DNA of 33,394 nucleotides, taken from Candidatus Peregrinibacteria bacterium CG1_02_54_53 (GTDB taxonomy: Bacteria > Patescibacteriota > Gracilibacteria > Peribacterales > Peribacteraceae). Positions 2,722 through 20,418 of this stretch are shown piece after piece. Both the position numbers and the translations under genes were made by a program. Location of the stretch: NCBI GenBank assembly GCA_001872575.1, contig MNWP01000017.1:1-33394 (forward strand), written 5' to 3'. Below the pieces are notes generated by a model. It saw nothing but the letters and a program-made list of their open reading frames with translations, was not told the DNA's origin and did no database searches. Each line of letters starts with the position of its first letter. Positions within the stretch are counted from its first letter, which is position 1.

Positions 2722-4269
2722 ATGTCCTTCTCCGTCCGTCGTGTCTCCGAGATGCGTAAGAAGCGTCGTTTCCCGTGGCAAAAATTGCCACTCATTCTCG
2801 CTGTCGTCCGTCCTCTCGCAGGATGGTACCGATCGTGGAAGATGCGCCATGAGAAAAAAGTGCGCCACGAGCAACGCACACTGCTTCTCAAGCGCGCACT
2901 GCTCGTATTGCTCGCCATTCTCTTCGCCTTCCTGCTGTTTGCCGGAACGGTAAAAGCACTCGTGGGTCTGCACATCATTTCAATGCGATCGCTGGTTTCA
3001 CTGACCGGAACGGATCTGCCAAAAGACGAGAAGGGATTCACCAACATCCTTCTGCTGGGCGAAGGCGATGCCGATCACGACGGTACGGACCTGACCGATA
3101 CCATCATCGTGGCCAGCATCGATCCGACAGAGACGAAGAGTGCCGTACTGCTCTCTCTTCCGCGCGATTTGTATTTTCTCAAAACGGAGAAAATGGGAAA
3201 AGGCCGCCTCAACAGCCTTTACCGCGATTACAAAATCCTCCTCCGTCGCCAGGGAACGGAGGAGCGCGAAGCCTCGCTCGAAGCAATCAGGGAACTCGGC
3301 AAGGTCGTTGGCGAGAACCTGGATCTTCCCATTCACCACGTCGTGAAAGTGAACTTCACCGGTTTTGAACAGGCCGTGGATGCCATCGGCGGCATCGATA
3401 TCACCGTTCCCGAAGCGATCAATGATACGGAGTATCCTGACGAGAATTACGGATACGAGACATTCTCAATCGCCGCCGGACCGGCACACCTCGACGGCAA
3501 GACCGCGCTCAAGTACGCGCGCAGCCGTCACACATCAAGCGACTTCGCCCGCTCCTCGCGCCAACAGCAGATCATCGTCGCCATCGGAGAGAAGGTGAAA
3601 TCAAAGGGTCTGTACAAGAACCCCTCAATAGTTACGGACCTCATGAAGATTTTCGCCGACAATGTCGAAATGACAATGAGCGTGCGCGAACTCGTCGGAC
3701 TGGCGAATCTCGCCGAGCGCATCGCTCCCGACCGGATCATCGCCATGCAACTCAACGACCGCAATGCCCTCTACGACAGCATCATCGAACCGGGAGGATT
3801 TCTCTACACGCCGCCGCGCGATGAGTTTGAGGGTGCTTCGGTACTGCTTCCCGTTTCCATCCCCGAATTCCCCGTCACGTGGAAACAGGTCAAGACTTTA
3901 AGCGCCATTCTCTTTCGTGAGCGTTCGGTTATTCTCGCACGCCCGGCCATCGGCATTCTCAATGCCGGTGCCAGGAGCGGACTGGCACGCAGACTTGGAA
4001 ACGAACTCACGCGCTATGGATTCAATGTACAACGCATCGAGAATGCCGACATCCCCAAAGATCTTCAGAAGCAGAATGACTGGACCATGATCATCGCCCG
4101 CGCAGACGGCAACATGGAGGTTGTCGAGTATTTGAGTAATCTGCTCAAGATCACTACGAACAGTGAAGATGTGCCCATTTCCCAGGAGCAGCGGGAAACA
4201 GTGACCATCGTGCTCGGCAAAGATTACGGCTATCAGCCGCTGCAGAATCTTCTTGTCACTGACGAATGA
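2722..4269 (+). CDS. LytR-CpsA-Psr (LCP) family protein with LytR_C domain
   Basis: The 515-residue protein has a basic cytoplasmic N-terminus, one membrane segment at about 59-80, and a long extracytoplasmic part. The LCP domain spans roughly 105-310, with NILLLGEGD, LTDTIIVASID, LLSLPRDLYF, GGIDITVPEAI and the arginine-rich RSRHTSSDFARSSRQQQ. Residues about 395-505 resemble a LytR_C domain (GILNAGARSGLARRL). LCP enzymes transfer undecaprenyl-linked glycopolymers to peptidoglycan or to proteins, so a role in envelope assembly is expected. A start at 2752 (MRKKRR) is also possible. I prefer 2722 because a -10-like TACACT lies 8 bases upstream. It overlaps the next gene by 4 bases. Confidence 0.88.
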   Translation: MSFSVRRVSEMRKKRRFPWQKLPLILAVVRPLAGWYRSWKMRHEKKVRHEQRTLLLKRALLVLLAILFAFLLFAGTVKALVGLHIISMRSLVSLTGTDLPKDEKGFTNILLLGEGDADHDGTDLTDTIIVASIDPTETKSAVLLSLPRDLYFLKTEKMGKGRLNSLYRDYKILLRRQGTEEREASLEAIRELGKVVGENLDLPIHHVVKVNFTGFEQAVDAIGGIDITVPEAINDTEYPDENYGYETFSIAAGPAHLDGKTALKYARSRHTSSDFARSSRQQQIIVAIGEKVKSKGLYKNPSIVTDLMKIFADNVEMTMSVRELVGLANLAERIAPDRIIAMQLNDRNALYDSIIEPGGFLYTPPRDEFEGASVLLPVSIPEFPVTWKQVKTLSAILFRERSVILARPAIGILNAGARSGLARRLGNELTRYGFNVQRIENADIPKDLQKQNDWTMIIARADGNMEVVEYLSNLLKITTNSEDVPISQEQRETVTIVLGKDYGYQPLQNLLVTDE

Positions 4270-5448: not shown

Positions 5449-6054
5449 ATGACGCTCACCCCCCATCAGCGCACCGTGCTCAATTACATCCGTGAATTTC
5501 AGACGAAGCGCGGATACTCCCCTTCACTTGCCGATCTCGCCCTCGCATTTGGCGTGCGCAGCAAGAACGCCATCGCCAAAGTGGTGAATGCACTTCTCAG
5601 GGAAAAGCAGTTGGAGAAGGACCCCAAGGGTCGGATCAAGATCCTCGAAATGCCCGACGGACAGGAGCGTCCGCAGCCGATGGTTTTGCCATTGTTCGGC
5701 CCCATCGCGGCAGGTTTCGCCACGGCTGCAGAGGAACAGGCAGAAGAACTTGTGGGAATCGAAGATTTTCTCGTGCGTGATCGAGCTCGCACGTTCCTGC
5801 TGCGTATCAAAGGCGACAGCATGATCAACGCCGGCATTCAGGAAGGCGACATCGTCATCGTGGAACGAGGCAAAGAACCCAAGGTGAATGACATCGTCGT
5901 GGGGGTTCTCGATGGCGAATTCACTCTTAAGCGTCTCAAAAAAGATAAGGGAAAGTTCTATCTGCAGGCAGAGAACCCCGCTTACCCCGATATGTACGCC
6001 ATGGAGGAGCTGCAGGCAGCCGGGGTTGTGCGTGGGGTAATGCGGAAATACTAG
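5449..6054 (+). CDS. lexA: LexA repressor
   Basis: The 201-residue protein is the SOS regulator. Residues 1-65 form the winged helix (MTLTPHQRTVLNYIREF, RGYSPSLADLALAFGVRS). The self-cleavage site is Ala88-Gly89 (GPIAAGFA), and the catalytic dyad is Ser124 (GDSMINAGIQEGD) and Lys161 (FTLKRLKK). All required residues are present. An in-frame TTG at 5341 would add 36 residues encoded by palindromic repeats. I reject it because LexA proteins start at this helix and the ATG follows the pyrimidine tract CCATTCCACTCTTATCT. dinB follows after 40 bases, forming an SOS operon. Confidence 0.95.
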   Translation: MTLTPHQRTVLNYIREFQTKRGYSPSLADLALAFGVRSKNAIAKVVNALLREKQLEKDPKGRIKILEMPDGQERPQPMVLPLFGPIAAGFATAAEEQAEELVGIEDFLVRDRARTFLLRIKGDSMINAGIQEGDIVIVERGKEPKVNDIVVGVLDGEFTLKRLKKDKGKFYLQAENPAYPDMYAMEELQAAGVVRGVMRKY

Positions 6055-6094
6055 ACGCACCCCTTCGTGGGTGCGGCGACTCCATCATTGTTCT

Positions 6095-7339
6095 ATGTTC
6101 GCGCACGTCGATGCCGATGCATTCTTTGCGTCTGTTCTCGAACGCAAAGATCCGCATCTGAAAGGCAAGCCTCTGCTCGCTCTCGGAGCCGGGGGCGGTA
6201 TCGTAATCGCCGCAAGTTATCCGGCCAAAGCGAAGGGAGTGAAAACGGGAATGCGGCTGCGCGAGGCGAAAATGCTCTGCCCCGAAGCCATTGCCCTGCT
6301 CTCGGATTTCACCGAAGCCTGCGTTGCTTCTGATCAAATTGAAACATTTCTCCGCTCCCTCACGCATGCAGTGGAACAAATGTCGGTCGATGAGTGGTTT
6401 TTGGATCTCAGGGAACTCGTACGAGGAATTCCGACAGACTCTGTGCAGTGGGCACGGGATCTGCAGCAAACAATCGCGGAATCCGTAGGTATCGGCATGT
6501 CGGTCGGAATCGCGCCGACCAAGCTGCTCGCGAAGATGGCGAGTGAGTATCGCAAACCTGCAGGAATCACCTGCATACGGGATACGAGATACATGATACG
6601 AGATACGCCAGGTATCATCGCTATTGAAACATTTCTCCGCGACCGTCCCGTGGCGGCCATTCCCGGAATTGGCCGCGCAAGACAGGTACGCGCCGCATCT
6701 CTGGATTGGCTAACGGCGTGGGATTTTGCCTCTGCAGAGCCAAAGACAATCGTCCACCTCTTCGGCAGGCCCGGAAGAGACCTGCAGGAGGAATTGAGAG
6801 GTAATCCCGTGAGCTCCGTCGTCTCCGCAAACGCTCCGCCAAAGTCCATCTCGCGCGGAAGAAGCTTTCGGCAGAGTCGTGATCACGCCGAAATCTTCAG
6901 CATCGTTGTACGACATCTAAGTATCTGCATCTTGCGCATGCGCGAACAGGGCCTGGCGTGCCGACACATCACTCTCTGGTTGCGTGACGGAAAATTCCGG
7001 TTCGAGGATGAACACCTGCGCCTGCCGCGGCCAATGGATACGGAAGATGTTTTGCTTCCGTATGTACGTCATGGATTCACAGCAATCTGGCGGCGCGTGC
7101 AGGGGTGCACACAGGCAGGCCTGGCACTCGGTGATCTGCGTCCTTCCGGCCCTGCGCAATACTCGCTCTTTCAGGAGCCTGCTCACCTGCTGCGGTCCGA
7201 ATGCGTTCAGTCGTCACTCGATACCATACGCAAACGCTTTGGCCGAGAGAGCATCACGCGCGCAACCAGCCTGCAACACACATCTGCAAAACGACCACAG
7301 CGGCCAAACACGTACGGCCACATCGGCACCACAGGATGA
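6095..7339 (+). CDS. dinB: DNA polymerase IV (Y-family, DinB)
   Basis: This 414-residue translesion polymerase has the Y-family motifs FAHVDADAFFASV (first catalytic Asp), SYPAKAKGVKTGM, SVDEWFLDL (second acidic motif), SVGIAPTKLLAKMAS and the helix-hairpin-helix AAIPGIGRA. The tail carries QYSLF, a typical beta-clamp binding motif. The second acidic motif has Trp where DinB usually has Ala (S-I-D-E-A). Residues about 165-178 contain an extra loop made of repeated Arg-Asp-Thr, encoded by a short tandem repeat. A hairpin GCACCC/GGGTGC at about 6057-6074 lies between lexA and dinB. It ends directly against the convergent deaminase gene. Confidence 0.93.
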   Translation: MFAHVDADAFFASVLERKDPHLKGKPLLALGAGGGIVIAASYPAKAKGVKTGMRLREAKMLCPEAIALLSDFTEACVASDQIETFLRSLTHAVEQMSVDEWFLDLRELVRGIPTDSVQWARDLQQTIAESVGIGMSVGIAPTKLLAKMASEYRKPAGITCIRDTRYMIRDTPGIIAIETFLRDRPVAAIPGIGRARQVRAASLDWLTAWDFASAEPKTIVHLFGRPGRDLQEELRGNPVSSVVSANAPPKSISRGRSFRQSRDHAEIFSIVVRHLSICILRMREQGLACRHITLWLRDGKFRFEDEHLRLPRPMDTEDVLLPYVRHGFTAIWRRVQGCTQAGLALGDLRPSGPAQYSLFQEPAHLLRSECVQSSLDTIRKRFGRESITRATSLQHTSAKRPQRPNTYGHIGTTG

Positions 7340-15495: not shown

Positions 15496-15519
15496 CCCCT
15501 CTTTTAGACCTCACAATAG

Positions 15520-15549
15520 AAAAACCCCCTGGAAACAAGCTTCAAGGGA
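15520..15549 (-). terminator. Intrinsic terminator of the phzE-like/radical SAM operon
   Basis: On the minus strand CCCTTGAA pairs with TTTCCAGGG (one mismatch), followed by GGTTTTTC. It lies 12 bases after the radical SAM gene. Confidence 0.6.
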
Positions 15550-15560
15550 TAAGGGATGTT

Positions 15561-17540
15561 TCACCTCTTTCCACGACGAAATAAATCTTCCAGAATTTCC
15601 TCTGCCGACCGACTATCTCTAAGCTCATTTTGAAAACGTACACTTGGACAAATGTTGCCACCAACACCAGGACGTGGGGCAAGGTCTCTCACATTCACCA
15701 ATGGTTCAAGAGTTTGAATCATCTCCGGAGACTCCCGACTTGTGATGACCAGCTCCGTCTCTGGCAGAAATATTCGCAGGAGTGCGTGGTAGTACACATA
15801 GGACCGGTCATCGAGAAAATTCGGCGTGGAAAAATTTGAATCTTCGACGCGTTGATGACGCGGTATGGAAAGACTCTTAGGATATCTGCCAAACATCTGC
15901 TTGATACGATCCGCATGCTGCACGAGAGCAGTGATCTCAAAATCATGCCCTGCAGTATTGAGGCCCATCAGCGCTCCGATGCCGATATCGGAAAAACCTG
16001 CCTGTAGTGCACGCTCCTGCGCAGTCAGCCTGCCATGGAATGCGCTCTTCGGACCGGTAACGTGATACTGCTCGTAGAGCGTAGGATCATACGTTTCCTG
16101 GAAGATTCGGTACTGCAGGCGCACTGTCGGATCTGCTGCCGCCACGATCTTTTCAAAATTCTCAGGGGTCTGCGGCGCGATGTTCAGCGTGACGCATTGC
16201 AGGGGAGATCTGTGCTTCTCGTTCACCGTACGCAGCACGTGAAGGGCATCGCAGCACTGTTGCGCTGCATGCGGGTTATCCCCTGCAAGAATGCAGAATT
16301 CCTCCGGCCGATGCCGCACCACCGCAGAAAAATCTTCCGCCATCTGCTCCGGAGTCAGCGCGGATCGCTGATGAACAGAAGACGCCCGATGACCGCAGTA
16401 CAGACAATCATTCACACACTCGTCTGAGATGTAACTGATACCATAGAGTTTCAGCTTGTCTCCGAACACGAGACAATTGATACGAGAAGCGCTCTCGACG
16501 ACTGTGTCAAAATAGTCTTCCCTCTGAGAAAGGAGCCTCTGAAGAATCTGCGTTCTTTCGCTGCTCGGAATGGCATTCTTCCTCAGTATATCCATAGAGG
16601 GAGTTTTGTTGATCCTCACTGTTTCCGTCGTCTTTTCCTCCTTTTTACCGAGGTCAGATTGCATCTCGATCCCCCGTACGAAGTCTCCGCCCTCATAGGG
16701 GCTGCACTCCCCTTCGCGTTGGAAGAACGCATCCGCCACTCCGAGAATGCCCATGAACGATGCATCCGTTCTCCGCAGCGGGATGAACCGATCACGCTCA
16801 AAGCGGCGCACGTCTCCGCCTTCACCGCAGGAATAGCGCTGCTGCCCGTTCAAATCAACGGTCAACACATCCAAAAGATCTTTTCTGAAGAGTTGCATCA
16901 GCAATGGGAAAAGCTCACCGAGGACCGGACCGAAATGTGGCACTTTGGCATGAAAGTCGAGGAGATCCTTTCCGATGTACGTATTCCTCCCCTGCTTGTC
17001 TTTCGGTGTTTTCTCGAACACGGAAATGTCGGCCATGTACTGCATCGCCTCACCCTTGACCAATACGGCAGCCAGATCCTGCCGTATATGACATGCCACG
17101 TAATGAAGTAGGTCAGCACCATGCAACAGAACATTGTTTGCTTTCCGGATACGTCCCGATGGATCGAATTCCATTGGTGGTTCCTCCGGCAGTGTGAATA
17201 CGCCGTAGCCTTGCGGATCCTCATAGATTGTTCCTCCAAGGCGAGGGAGGATGTTCCGAACGACAGAAACGGAATCTTTGCTCTGGTAATCCGATGCGAA
17301 AGAGGCGATGTGGTATGCGCCTCCATCTCCCGTGAGTTCAGCAAGTTTGGCATGTTTGAGCCGATCGGAAGCAGGGGTGAAAAGACGCGCAGATTCGCGC
17401 TTCGGTGGAATTTTCTCCTGGCCTGTCGCGACCAGCCGCATCATCTGAACCAAAGCATCGAGTCTCTTCCGTACATCATATTTGTTGCCTCTGGCATCAA
17501 GATAGAAGGATCGGGCCGGAGAGGGAAAATAATGTTCCAT
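15561..17540 (-). CDS. Radical SAM protein: unknown N-terminal region fused to a ThiH/HydG-type domain
   Basis: The protein has 659 residues. Residues about 315-659 form a radical SAM domain with the cluster motif Cys375-x3-Cys379-x2-Cys382 (CVNDCLYCGHR). Conserved ThiH/HydG segments follow: NIAPQTPENFEKI, FQETYDPTLYEQYH, GPKSAFHGRL, AGFSDIGIGALMGL, SIPRHQR and ITSRESPEM. Such enzymes cleave aromatic amino acids (tyrosine in ThiH/HydG, tryptophan in the relative NosL). HydG's C-terminal Cys cluster for its auxiliary iron-sulfur centre is missing, so hydrogenase maturation is unlikely. Residues 1-310 are not recognised; notable stretches are DYQSKDSVSVVRNILPRLGG and HGADLLHYVACHIRQDL. It starts 17 bases after the phzE-like gene, with TTTCCCTCTTTATTCCC before the ATG. 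Confidence 0.85.
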   Translation of the reverse strand: MEHYFPSPARSFYLDARGNKYDVRKRLDALVQMMRLVATGQEKIPPKRESARLFTPASDRLKHAKLAELTGDGGAYHIASFASDYQSKDSVSVVRNILPRLGGTIYEDPQGYGVFTLPEEPPMEFDPSGRIRKANNVLLHGADLLHYVACHIRQDLAAVLVKGEAMQYMADISVFEKTPKDKQGRNTYIGKDLLDFHAKVPHFGPVLGELFPLLMQLFRKDLLDVLTVDLNGQQRYSCGEGGDVRRFERDRFIPLRRTDASFMGILGVADAFFQREGECSPYEGGDFVRGIEMQSDLGKKEEKTTETVRINKTPSMDILRKNAIPSSERTQILQRLLSQREDYFDTVVESASRINCLVFGDKLKLYGISYISDECVNDCLYCGHRASSVHQRSALTPEQMAEDFSAVVRHRPEEFCILAGDNPHAAQQCCDALHVLRTVNEKHRSPLQCVTLNIAPQTPENFEKIVAAADPTVRLQYRIFQETYDPTLYEQYHVTGPKSAFHGRLTAQERALQAGFSDIGIGALMGLNTAGHDFEITALVQHADRIKQMFGRYPKSLSIPRHQRVEDSNFSTPNFLDDRSYVYYHALLRIFLPETELVITSRESPEMIQTLEPLVNVRDLAPRPGVGGNICPSVRFQNELRDSRSAEEILEDLFRRGKR

Positions 17541-17557
17541 GGGAATAAAGAGGGAAA

Positions 17558-19441
17558 TTATGAAAGCAGCCGCGTAAGCGTCTCTCCGAGAATCTGAAAC
17601 CCGTTCTTGGTCAGTACGGACTCCGGATGGAACTGGAAACTTGCGAACTGATCGCCTCGCAGTGCGTGAACACACTGAGACTCTCTATCGTATGCCACTT
17701 CGACTCCGGGAACCTCCTGATGACGCGCAGAAAACGTATTGTAGAAACCAACGAGCTGCTGCTCACCAAAAAGATCGATCTGTTTTCGGACTCCCTGTGT
17801 CGGTGTCTCCTGCCGCACAACCTCCATGCCCAACTCCCTGCTGAGAATCTGATGGCCAAGGCAGACGGCGAGGAATTTCTTTCCCGATGCCCGAAGCTCG
17901 CGCACAACGCGACTCAGCTTCTGCATCTTTGGATTCTGTTTATTATTTGGATCGCCGGGGCCGGGACCGACGACGACGAGATCTGCATCATCTGATGCAC
18001 AATCGTACGTATCAAGACTTACCACACGAACAATCGCACCCATGCTCGTCATCATGTGTTTGAGCGTATGACAGAAATCATCTTCATTATCGATAACAGT
18101 AATGGCCTTTCCCTGAACGGCTTCGAGTGTGTTATTCACTCCTTCCTGATCCTCAAGAAAGTAGCGCGAGAGATCGATGTTTCGCTCTCTGAGTACCTGA
18201 AGAACCTCTTCATCAGAAAGGAGATCTGTATCTAAAGGAACGGCCATTTCTTGTGTCGGATGCAGAATGCTCCCCATAAGGGCACTCAACTTCGCCTGTG
18301 TCTCTTTCACTTCGCTTTCCGGATCCGAATCCCGAACCAAGGTGGCACCTGCACGTACGGAAATCGTACCATCGGCATCAATCTCTGCCGTGCGGATCGG
18401 GATGGCGCTATCAAGGCTTTCTCTGACATCCGCGTCCCGACCCAATAAGGCGAGCGCAGAAGCATAATACCCACGAGAACCAAGTTCGTACTTTTTGAGA
18501 ATCCTGCACGCATTTTTCATGGGACTGCCCGTGACCGTCGGTGCGTACATGGATGTGCGCAGCAGATCAATGACTGGCAAATCACTGTGACCACGCAACA
18601 GATATTCGGTATGAATCAGTCGTGACATGTTCTTGAGGAGTGGACCGATGACCGTTCCGCCTCGCTCACACATCTGCGACATCATCTTGAGTTCTTCATC
18701 GAGCACCATGAAGAGTTCAAGGATCTCTTTGTCGTCACAGAGGAATGCGAGGAGCTCCTCTCTCGTAACATTCTGTCCCAGCTTCTTTCGTAAAGTACCA
18801 CTGATCGGGTTCATCATTACCTTTCCTTGCTGCACAGAAAGATGCCTCTCCGGTGACGCTCCGATGAGGTACTTCTGTCCATCGAAGAAAATGAATGTCA
18901 TGTAACTGCCATGCTCCGCTTGCAGAAGCGACCGATAGATACTCAGTGCCTTTGCTCGATTCATTTCGACGATCTGTCCCCTCCCCGTATTCGCGATGAC
19001 GAAGTTCGCCCCTTCCCCTTGACCGATTTCTTCATCGAGCACCTGCTGGATAACTTCTGCATACTCCTCGGGCGTCTTGTCGAACTGGATACCGTTTTTG
19101 AGCGTAATGTCTTCGGAAGGAACAGAAGCGAGTAACTCCTGCAAATTCACCCTCGTCTGTCGGGCAATATCAATGCAACGAATCGATTCATTTTCCGAGT
19201 GCGCCTCAAATCCACGCTCACGAACCTGAGAGAAAGGAATCGCGCAGACAGTTTCCACTGCGCCATCTAAACCCGGAGCTCCGACGTTGCGCTGCATATC
19301 CGCAAGAGAATGGCAAAGCCGCTGTGTCCCCGAAAGTACCTGTACCTCCTCTTCAGCGCCACGCCGGATCATGACAAAGGGATCGGTGCCGTGGAGTATG
19401 TCTTCGATTGGGGCCGATGATGAGTGAGAAGAAGATTTCAT
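17558..19441 (-). CDS. phzE: PhzE-like chorismate aminotransferase (ADIC synthase type), MST-GAT fusion
   Basis: The 627-residue protein joins a chorismate-using MST domain (about 70-390) to a glutamine amidotransferase domain (about 445-627). PhzE-like signatures are EIGQGEGANFVI, IGASPERHLSV, MNPISGT, LFMVLDEELKMM, HTEY, APTVTGSP, RGYY, TPTQGVRKQIDLFG, VGFYNTFSAR and FQFHPESVLT. Amidotransferase residues Cys527 (AVCLGHQ), His605 and Glu607 are present. Length and domain order match PhzE, which converts chorismate and glutamine to 2-amino-2-deoxyisochorismate; TrpE-G fusions that make anthranilate are the alternative. No other phz or trp biosynthetic gene is near. The start follows TTTCCCTTCTCATTTCATTCCC. 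Confidence 0.88.
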   Translation of the reverse strand: MKSSSHSSSAPIEDILHGTDPFVMIRRGAEEEVQVLSGTQRLCHSLADMQRNVGAPGLDGAVETVCAIPFSQVRERGFEAHSENESIRCIDIARQTRVNLQELLASVPSEDITLKNGIQFDKTPEEYAEVIQQVLDEEIGQGEGANFVIANTGRGQIVEMNRAKALSIYRSLLQAEHGSYMTFIFFDGQKYLIGASPERHLSVQQGKVMMNPISGTLRKKLGQNVTREELLAFLCDDKEILELFMVLDEELKMMSQMCERGGTVIGPLLKNMSRLIHTEYLLRGHSDLPVIDLLRTSMYAPTVTGSPMKNACRILKKYELGSRGYYASALALLGRDADVRESLDSAIPIRTAEIDADGTISVRAGATLVRDSDPESEVKETQAKLSALMGSILHPTQEMAVPLDTDLLSDEEVLQVLRERNIDLSRYFLEDQEGVNNTLEAVQGKAITVIDNEDDFCHTLKHMMTSMGAIVRVVSLDTYDCASDDADLVVVGPGPGDPNNKQNPKMQKLSRVVRELRASGKKFLAVCLGHQILSRELGMEVVRQETPTQGVRKQIDLFGEQQLVGFYNTFSARHQEVPGVEVAYDRESQCVHALRGDQFASFQFHPESVLTKNGFQILGETLTRLLS

Positions 19442-19498
19442 GGGAATGAAATGAGAAGGGAAATACAAAATCGCTCCAACCGTGTGAGACGCGCACCG

Positions 19499-19513
19499 GA
19501 CTGAACATCAGTC
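19499..19513. promoter_or_regulatory. Short palindrome upstream of the phzE-like gene
   Basis: GACTGA-ACA-TCAGTC is a perfect 6-bp inverted repeat in the 85-base gap between the unknown protein gene and the phzE-like gene. It could be an operator for the nearby TrpR-type protein or an RNA hairpin. No function is demonstrated. Confidence 0.3.
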
Positions 19514-19526
19514 ATTCAGAAGCGCT

Positions 19527-20066
19527 TCACACTTGCACTTGAACAGGCCAGGTATCGATTTCGGAAATTTCAGGAACAGCCGTTGCCGGAATTCCCGACA
19601 CTGCAGAATCGGATCTCATCGCCGAAATTTCTACCCGCTGACCGCATAGCTTAAGAGGAGTACCCGGCTCCCGCATGCCATCCGTTCCCGTCAGCGCTCC
19701 GACCGGGAAAAAATATCCGTTGTTGTGCGGATTCCGTTTCAGCGGCTTGTCGGCAGTGTCGGCATTACACGGGTTATCCTCGTCAACGAGGAATGGCAAT
19801 CGGCAATTTCCCGTAAACTGTGCATCACAATCACAGAAAACAATCGTCTCATCCGGATTGAGTGATCCCACCCGAGCTACAGACTCCTGCACGCTCCTGC
19901 AAATTCTCTGCAATGCAGCTTCATCAATACGAAGATCTGCACAGAGAGCCTGTACTTCTGCCGTCACGTTCTGCACATTCGTTGTCATCTCACGAACGTC
20001 TCTTCCGGATCGGATCCGTACTGCGAGGAGCTGCTGCGCCGAAGGAGTGGAGGGGGATGTTTCCAT
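19527..20066 (-). CDS. Unknown protein in the phzE-like operon (179 residues)
   Basis: I do not recognise a family. Residues 1-70 look alpha-helical and contain spaced hydrophobic residues. Residues about 75-145 contain a Cys cluster (FCDCDAQFTGNC, then DEDNPC, and a later LKLC) and a Gly/Asn/Pro-rich stretch (RNPHNNGYFFPVGALTG). The end is hydrophobic and polar without a membrane segment. It has no signal peptide. It begins the likely transcription unit with the phzE-like and radical SAM genes, having its own promoter at 20078-20106. The Cys residues could bind metal, and its place suggests a role in the same pathway. Confidence 0.65.
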   Translation of the reverse strand: METSPSTPSAQQLLAVRIRSGRDVREMTTNVQNVTAEVQALCADLRIDEAALQRICRSVQESVARVGSLNPDETIVFCDCDAQFTGNCRLPFLVDEDNPCNADTADKPLKRNPHNNGYFFPVGALTGTDGMREPGTPLKLCGQRVEISAMRSDSAVSGIPATAVPEISEIDTWPVQVQV

Positions 20067-20077
20067 GTACCGCTACA

Positions 20078-20106
20078 ACAGTACATTCACTTTCCTCCAA
20101 AATCAA
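20078..20106 (-). promoter_or_regulatory. Promoter of the phzE-like/radical SAM operon
   Basis: On the minus strand TTGATT (20101-20106) and TACTGT (20078-20083) are 17 bases apart. The ATG of the first gene is 11 bases downstream, again giving an almost leaderless message. Confidence 0.5.
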
Positions 20107-20130
20107 GAGAAACACTTCTGTATTTCCTAT

Positions 20131-20418
20131 TTACCTCGTCTTCTTCAGTTTCTTCAGGAAATAGGCAAATCCCCCGCCCCCATACTGCAGCATCCGCGAC
20201 CCGCGCGTGATCTTGCTGATCGAAATATTCAGTTTTCTTGCAATATCCCGTTGAGGCGTGCCCTTATTAAGCTCCTGAATGAGCTGCCAGCGCTCCGCGA
20301 CGGACGCCAGTTCCTGCGGCGTGAGAATATCGCAAAGGAGCTTCTCGGCCTCCTTCTTGTTTTGCACGGAACAGAAGAGCTCGTAGAGATCCCGTAAATG
20401 CTTTGGCGGCACGCTCAT
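20131..20418 (-). CDS. TrpR/YerC-family transcriptional regulator
   Basis: This 95-residue all-helical DNA-binding protein has the TrpR-superfamily helix-turn-helix: LTPQELASVAERWQLIQEL, then GTPQRDIARKLNISISKITR and GSRML. This matches the YerC/YecD group of TrpR-like proteins (family TIGR02531). The E. coli relative represses tryptophan genes with tryptophan as corepressor; ligands of the YerC group are unclear. A -10-like TATACT (20427-20432) lies 8 bases before the ATG. It sits directly upstream of the phzE-like operon on the same strand, so regulation of that operon is an attractive inference. Confidence 0.9.
   Translation of the reverse strand: MSVPPKHLRDLYELFCSVQNKKEAEKLLCDILTPQELASVAERWQLIQELNKGTPQRDIARKLNISISKITRGSRMLQYGGGGFAYFLKKLKKTR

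Follow-up and report, generated by a model that had tools for sequence, protein, structure and literature searches.

Why would a cell that lacks chorismate synthase keep a tightly regulated branch-point enzyme? This testable question is raised by a locus in a Peribacteraceae (Patescibacteria) MAG, here called G000, which at 1.37 Mb and 96% completeness fits the small-genome lineage presumed in the original prediction. The window, by which we mean the whole stretch of DNA that was analysed, comprises 33,394 nucleotides, and the genomes compared with it are draft MAGs in pieces. The locus had first been read as a new biosynthetic operon in which a PhzE-like enzyme and a radical SAM protein act together; its genes are real, the pathway idea mostly is not. 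Taken as a whole, the locus is probably best explained as a tryptophan-responsive operon that contains an orphan TrpEG-type enzyme.

Gene order and flanking signals

Transcription on the minus strand of G000 runs from rpsO through trpR, a predicted operator, the leader ORF P0003, the PhzE-type enzyme and the radical SAM fusion to pnp. When the ORF coordinates were re-read, the four predicted ORFs stood where they had been placed, all on the minus strand; the 17 bases counted between the PhzE-like and radical SAM genes were borne out, as was the claim that no trp or phz genes lie around the locus. Pfam and NCBIfam profiles back the assignment of G000 ORFs to TrpR, to chorismate-binding plus GATase-I and to a ThiH/HydG-related radical SAM protein. 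The same order recurs in G004, a relative represented by the public Peribacteraceae contig JAQVMW010000007.1, and a search of contigs with P0001 matched the contig of G004 only. Conservation of the order is partial, as the genus-mate G002 and G020 carry rpsO-trpR-orf-phzE-pnp without the radical SAM module.

The signals proposed to bracket the enzyme genes held up less well. The promoter claimed at 20078-20106 is weak (about 7/12 consensus matches), was missed by the scanner and is overlapped by the predicted TrpR operator. The terminator claimed at 15520-15549 is a poor hairpin in G000 that the scanner also missed, but a clean 8-bp hairpin occupies the same place in G004; we annotate it as a weak terminator-like hairpin 3' of the radical SAM gene (15515..15552, minus strand), not significant in G000 and with a strong counterpart in G004. 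Terminator and promoter scans gave results at chance level.

A TrpR-family repressor and its predicted operator

The regulator (20131..20418, minus strand, 95 aa) reaches 76.5 bits with Pfam Trp_repressor (cut-off 27), in agreement with the TrpR-type regulator originally proposed, and 59.1 bits with the NCBIfam TrpR model, slightly below its cut-off of 67.25. Its gene sits in an rpsO-trpR-X-pnp slot that is found in many Peribacteraceae.

In E. coli, a spacing of ten bases separates the GTAC half sites of the trp operator. A motif scan of the window, allowing at most three mismatches, returned one match where 0.01 were expected, namely the predicted operator TGTACTGTTGTAGCGGTAC at 20067-20085 (minus strand), which agrees perfectly with the consensus TGTACYGTTGTARCGGTAC. 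Operator matches occur in 23 of 58 relatives, all of them Peribacteraceae, and the reversed control gave two. In the four closest genomes, the stretch from trpR to the enzyme has almost nothing in common except TGTACYGTTGTARCGGTAC. For 21 of the 28 sites examined, a TrpR gene, the beginning of a TrpE/TrpEG/PhzE-type gene or both are close by; the bona fide trpE genes of G011, G190 and G228 are among these. In G331 a palindrome, GTACTAGTAC, lies upstream of trpR, beside the radical SAM gene.

Other genes are found at such sites as well. A TIGR04076 protein occupies the TrpR-operator slot in G018, G014 and G210 (L089:5357-6912, L092:2978-4469, L093:4590-4964), followed in G018, and by similarity in G014, by a protein distantly like indoleamine 2,3-dioxygenase (PF01231, E 0.0012). 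G018 also holds three further identical copies of a TrpR-operator-like site, away from trp-like genes (L090:3502, L091:2944, L089:7936).

Leader reading frames and a candidate attenuator

The Cys-containing protein of 179 residues, P0003 (19527..20066, minus strand), had been listed as unknown; it reads instead as an attenuator leader, with a single Trp codon (19548-19550, minus strand) six residues before its stop and alternative hairpins nearby. Its homologue in G010 is 57% identical, holds the same place after the operator and likewise has one Trp, four residues ahead of its stop; there is no PhzE-type gene at that site in G010. A second, unrelated family of leader ORFs is present in G002, G001 and G003, and a third in G004 and G020. 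Each of the seven leader ORFs encodes a single Trp, placed 3-6 residues ahead of the stop, in C-termini that are otherwise unlike. Directly after the stop, five genomes have GCGGAGCG in common (CGGAGCG in G002), whatever the ORF family.

The candidate trp attenuator of G000 (19466..19550, minus strand) comprises this Trp codon, an antiterminator with arms GTGTGAaGCGC and GCGCgtcTCACAC, and an alternative terminator hairpin with a short T-run. Folding was run twice, for a ribosome standing at the Trp codon and for one at the stop codon; the 15-base ribosome footprint and the points at which the folded stretches end 3' were our choices. In the first case, the free stretch folds into an antiterminator-like hairpin, and in the second, a later hairpin and T-run form in the enzyme-bearing genomes. 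In G020, the arm ACGCTCCG is common to both hairpins, and GCGGAGCGT/ACGCTCCG has a U-A pair where GCGGAGCGC/GCGCTCCGC has C-G. The same architecture is seen in six relatives. Mutually exclusive hairpins and a T-run terminator are clear in G020, G004, G011, G228 and G196; they are weak in G000, where the hairpins do not surpass those of shuffled sequences (z -1.6 and +0.4) and only four T make up the T-run. No convincing terminator was found after the leader in G218 and G222.

Comparable arrangements precede recognised tryptophan genes. Trp leaders with alternative hairpins stand before trpE in G011 (WWQVRKISAQR, then stop) and G228 (WWQDSKQSVRR, then stop) and before trpGE in G196, and WW leaders precede PhzE-type genes in G227, G218, G222, G219 and G221. 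The case that P0003 is an oversized attenuator leader is thus a comparative one, which rests on the relatives, and we regard it as strong.

Two further groups of small proteins were noticed. In G001 and G010, a small basic protein ending in PQWGGWLFE follows an attenuator-like hairpin (L097 about 5950-6300, L095 about 2800-3200), and another family of small Trp-containing proteins occupies the trpR-pnp slot in G003, G209, G191 and G218 (L096:7321-7575, L100:6980-7270, L101:6551-6826, L131:7259-7462).

The fused enzyme and the tryptophan pathway

The enzyme (17558..19441, minus strand, 627 aa) combines a chorismate-binding part with a glutamine amidotransferase and is the only chorismate-binding protein that a genome search returned for G000. 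Its nearest solved protein is PhzE (3r74), with 465 bits over the full length of the fused MST-GATase chain against 76 bits for the best TrpE, so the PhzE-family assignment of the original prediction was sound. The amidotransferase motifs CLGHQ and FHPES and the chorismate-site motifs are intact. The product is a separate matter, as anthranilate synthase and ADIC synthase are not distinguishable by sequence (PMC5958127), and for Streptomyces venezuelae a fused TrpEG that resembles PhzE is reported to be an anthranilate synthase rather than an ADIC synthase (ref. 53 cited in PMC3111181).

Among 353 genomes of the class, 29 encode a PhzE-type enzyme, and the surroundings of these genes point to tryptophan. 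Code-25 genomes have the gene in operons with trpC, trpD, trpF, trpB and trpA (L128, L143; order trpC-trpD-trpF-X-trpB-trpA, neighbour names assigned by eye), and parts of such an operon surround it at L142 and L144. In G349 and G346, the enzyme forms the N-terminal part of a chain of 1386 or 1383 residues with TrpD-TrpC-TrpF, followed by trpB and trpA; family matches back the fusion domains of G349. These two loci (L126:6520-10680, minus strand; L127:8559-12710, plus strand) place nearly the whole tryptophan pathway in one chain. In the code-25 genome G157, a PhzE-type gene adjoins one that resembles shikimate kinase (L139:5767-8938), and a second PhzE-type gene lies elsewhere.

In the tree, phenazine and other natural-product PhzE proteins form one clade (100/100) without any Patescibacteria sequence. 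Position 219 is K in 11/11 Peribacteraceae and in 6/6 trp-linked forms and Y in most phenazine forms, with the proviso that just five columns separate the trp and phenazine forms and that most of these are uninformative. Because relatives have the enzyme either within trp operons or joined to TrpD-TrpC-TrpF, and because the G000 protein falls outside the phenazine clade, a TrpEG-type anthranilate synthase appears to be the best reading; the same occurrence in sister lineages makes the ADIC originally proposed a doubtful, though possible, product. More broadly, PhzE-type enzymes of Patescibacteria are tied to tryptophan synthesis, not to phenazines.

An enzyme without its pathway

Profile searches for AroC (chorismate synthase), TrpD and TrpC found none in G000, G002 and G004; G020 likewise has no AroC and no TrpD and matches the IGPS model no more than weakly and in part, and TrpA is absent from 11/11 PhzE-bearing Peribacteraceae. 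The enzyme of G000 is an orphan, since the genome has neither chorismate synthase nor TrpD, TrpC or TrpA. A complete trp operon elsewhere in the genome, with the enzyme scoring as a plain TrpE-G, had been named as a way for the original idea to fail; these Trp proteins are absent and the enzyme scores as PhzE-family. The orphan state also counts against our own reading, given that anthranilate has no known use in a cell without the downstream trp enzymes searched for (TrpD, TrpC and TrpA). Two further genomes, G016 and G196, carry a fused TrpG-TrpE-like enzyme and then an aspartate-racemase-like gene behind a TrpR operator (L098:7255-10208, L106:4102-6968), and they too are without chorismate synthase.

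That aro and trp genes are present but were missed by the drafts, so that the enzyme would serve an ordinary split trp pathway, is the least probable of the explanations weighed here. All the genomes are MAGs in pieces, yet those with missing aro/trp genes are 96-98% complete, the gaps agree in G000, G002 and G004 and largely in G020, and identical searches find the genes, TrpA among them, in G011, G118 and G349. The loss of chorismate synthase and of the rest of the pathway would also suit a decaying remnant of a former trp operon with no present function. Such a relict is very unlikely, however, given open reading frames, intact catalytic motifs, a dN/dS of about 0.1 over four genomes (0.10-0.16 for the PhzE-type gene between relatives) and an operator and attenuator that were kept although the leader bodies were swapped.

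The radical SAM fusion

The last gene (15561-17540, minus strand) encodes 659 residues, with an N-terminal domain (16623..17540, minus strand) joined to a ThiH/HydG-related radical SAM domain (15561..16622, minus strand). NCBIfam assignment and motifs confirm the fusion as originally described: the core has CX3CX2C and the FQE(T/S)Y, GPK/GSK and PR motifs of ThiH and HydG. It scores 178.2 bits with the ThiH equivalog (cut-off 380) and 43.5 bits with that of NosL, 3-methyl-2-indolic acid synthase (cut-off 400), and likewise misses the HydG cut-off. Aligned with HydG, which has 480 residues, the protein stops near residue 386, without the C-terminal domain for a second Fe-S cluster, and in the tree its radical SAM domain and four others form their own clade (100/100). 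A role in thiamine synthesis was considered and rejected, as ThiG is unmatched in G000 and G004 and gives weak partial matches in the other genomes searched.

The N-terminal domain belongs to no known sequence family. It was found in five genomes of the class; in a 380-genome sample of the phylum only G000 matched, and viral contigs, plasmids, PDB sequences and Pfam gave no match. Two genomes, G322 and G327, encode it as a gene of its own, and in G352 there is just a C-terminal radical SAM fragment. Its predicted fold is HODM/PAS-like: among the best 1000 Foldseek chains compared, the HODM alpha subunit (5lte) matches both models best, with Z scores of 10.5 and 11.6 and an rmsd of 4.0-4.5 across 217-225 residues (about 10% identity and no sequence match), well above PAS domains.

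The distribution of the module bears directly on the proposal of a single pathway in which the radical SAM protein and an ADIC synthase of PhzE type together yield a new cofactor or small molecule derived from chorismate. Adjacency of the genes across a 17-base gap, in the same order in G004, speaks for it, as does the nearness of the enzyme to an ADIC synthase. On the other hand, only 2 of the 29 PhzE-bearing genomes (G000 and G004) have both genes, the module occurs without a PhzE-type gene in G331, G322 and G327, isochorismatase/PhzD is absent from 10/10 genomes searched, and the enzyme is part of trp operons in relatives. Between G000 and G004, identity changes abruptly at the gene boundary, with dS 0.93 for phzE and 0.22-0.37 for the radical SAM parts, and this drop suggests separate histories, with the fusion a later arrival in the operon or the product of exchange. 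A joint dedicated pathway is accordingly not supported, and we consider it unlikely.

The substrate of the radical SAM domain is probably an aromatic amino acid. TrpR adjoins the module in G331 and lies about 500 bases away in G322, and because this neighbourhood is repeated in independent lineages, tryptophan is favoured as a speculative candidate. It is possible, if doubtful, that the protein is a tyrosine or tryptophan lyase serving another need (dehydroglycine, CO/CN or similar) and merely hitch-hiking on the operon: its relationship to ThiH and HydG and the low dS, which suggests recent arrival, would fit, but TrpR neighbours in both G331 and G322 would not. The radical SAM family is rare, has an unassigned domain and comes with a physiological hint, namely tryptophan.

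Discussion

Our preferred reading, a tryptophan-responsive operon, implies the following course of events. With tryptophan plentiful, TrpR would very probably block the promoter, and a ribosome that passes the single leader Trp codon and reaches the stop would very probably allow a terminator hairpin to form before the enzyme gene. With tryptophan scarce, repression would very probably be lifted, and a ribosome stalled at the leader Trp codon would be expected to favour the antiterminator, so that the enzyme and the radical SAM protein are made. The enzyme would then convert chorismate and glutamine to anthranilate, or possibly ADIC. As G000 has no chorismate synthase, the chorismate would presumably be supplied from outside, by a host or a neighbouring cell; the anthranilate may be passed to a partner, for example one that completes tryptophan. 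The radical SAM fusion appears to have joined the operon in the lineage of G000.

A more ambitious version of this scheme is tentative and, as a whole, rather unlikely. In it, a host-dependent cell would use a doubly tryptophan-controlled anthranilate synthase to turn its partner's chorismate into anthranilate at tryptophan shortage, bypassing the partner's feedback and raising the partner's tryptophan; the PAS/HODM-like and radical SAM enzyme would belong to the same response, and the leaders would have grown into real, swappable proteins.

No relevant paper on TrpR or the tryptophan genes of Peribacteria or CPR came up in a literature search. Tryptophan-responsive control is the common theme, and what is new is a variant of trp regulation around an orphan enzyme, to which a rare radical SAM module is joined.

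Comparison with known systems

With the PhzE of phenazine clusters (3r74, an ADIC synthase), the G000 enzyme has the fused layout, full-length similarity and catalytic motifs in common, but it stands outside the phenazine clade, without PhzD/isochorismatase, and its relatives lie in trp operons. The fused TrpEG of Streptomyces venezuelae is likewise a PhzE-like fused enzyme, a likeness drawn from its description as cited, not from its sequence; unlike the G000 enzyme, it belongs to an actinobacterial cell with its own tryptophan pathway. The radical SAM domain resembles the ThiH/HydG lyases in its motifs and differs in its separate clade, in the missing HydG C-terminal cluster domain and ThiG partner, and in the unrelated 300-residue N-terminal domain, for which the HODM alpha subunit is the best structural match in two models, at low identity and with no sequence-family match.

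The closest parallel in regulation is the trp control of E. coli by TrpR and trpL. The enzyme downstream differs, being in G000 an orphan in a genome without chorismate synthase, and so does the leader, which in this genus and G010 has 92-179 residues and a single Trp codon, in contrast to the 14-residue peptide with two Trp in E. coli. Common to both are a TrpR-family repressor, a palindromic operator with the same GTAC spacing, and leader Trp codon(s) with alternative antiterminator and terminator hairpins, a candidate attenuator in G000, before a known or probable anthranilate synthase gene, which together point to E. coli-style dual trp regulation in Patescibacteria.
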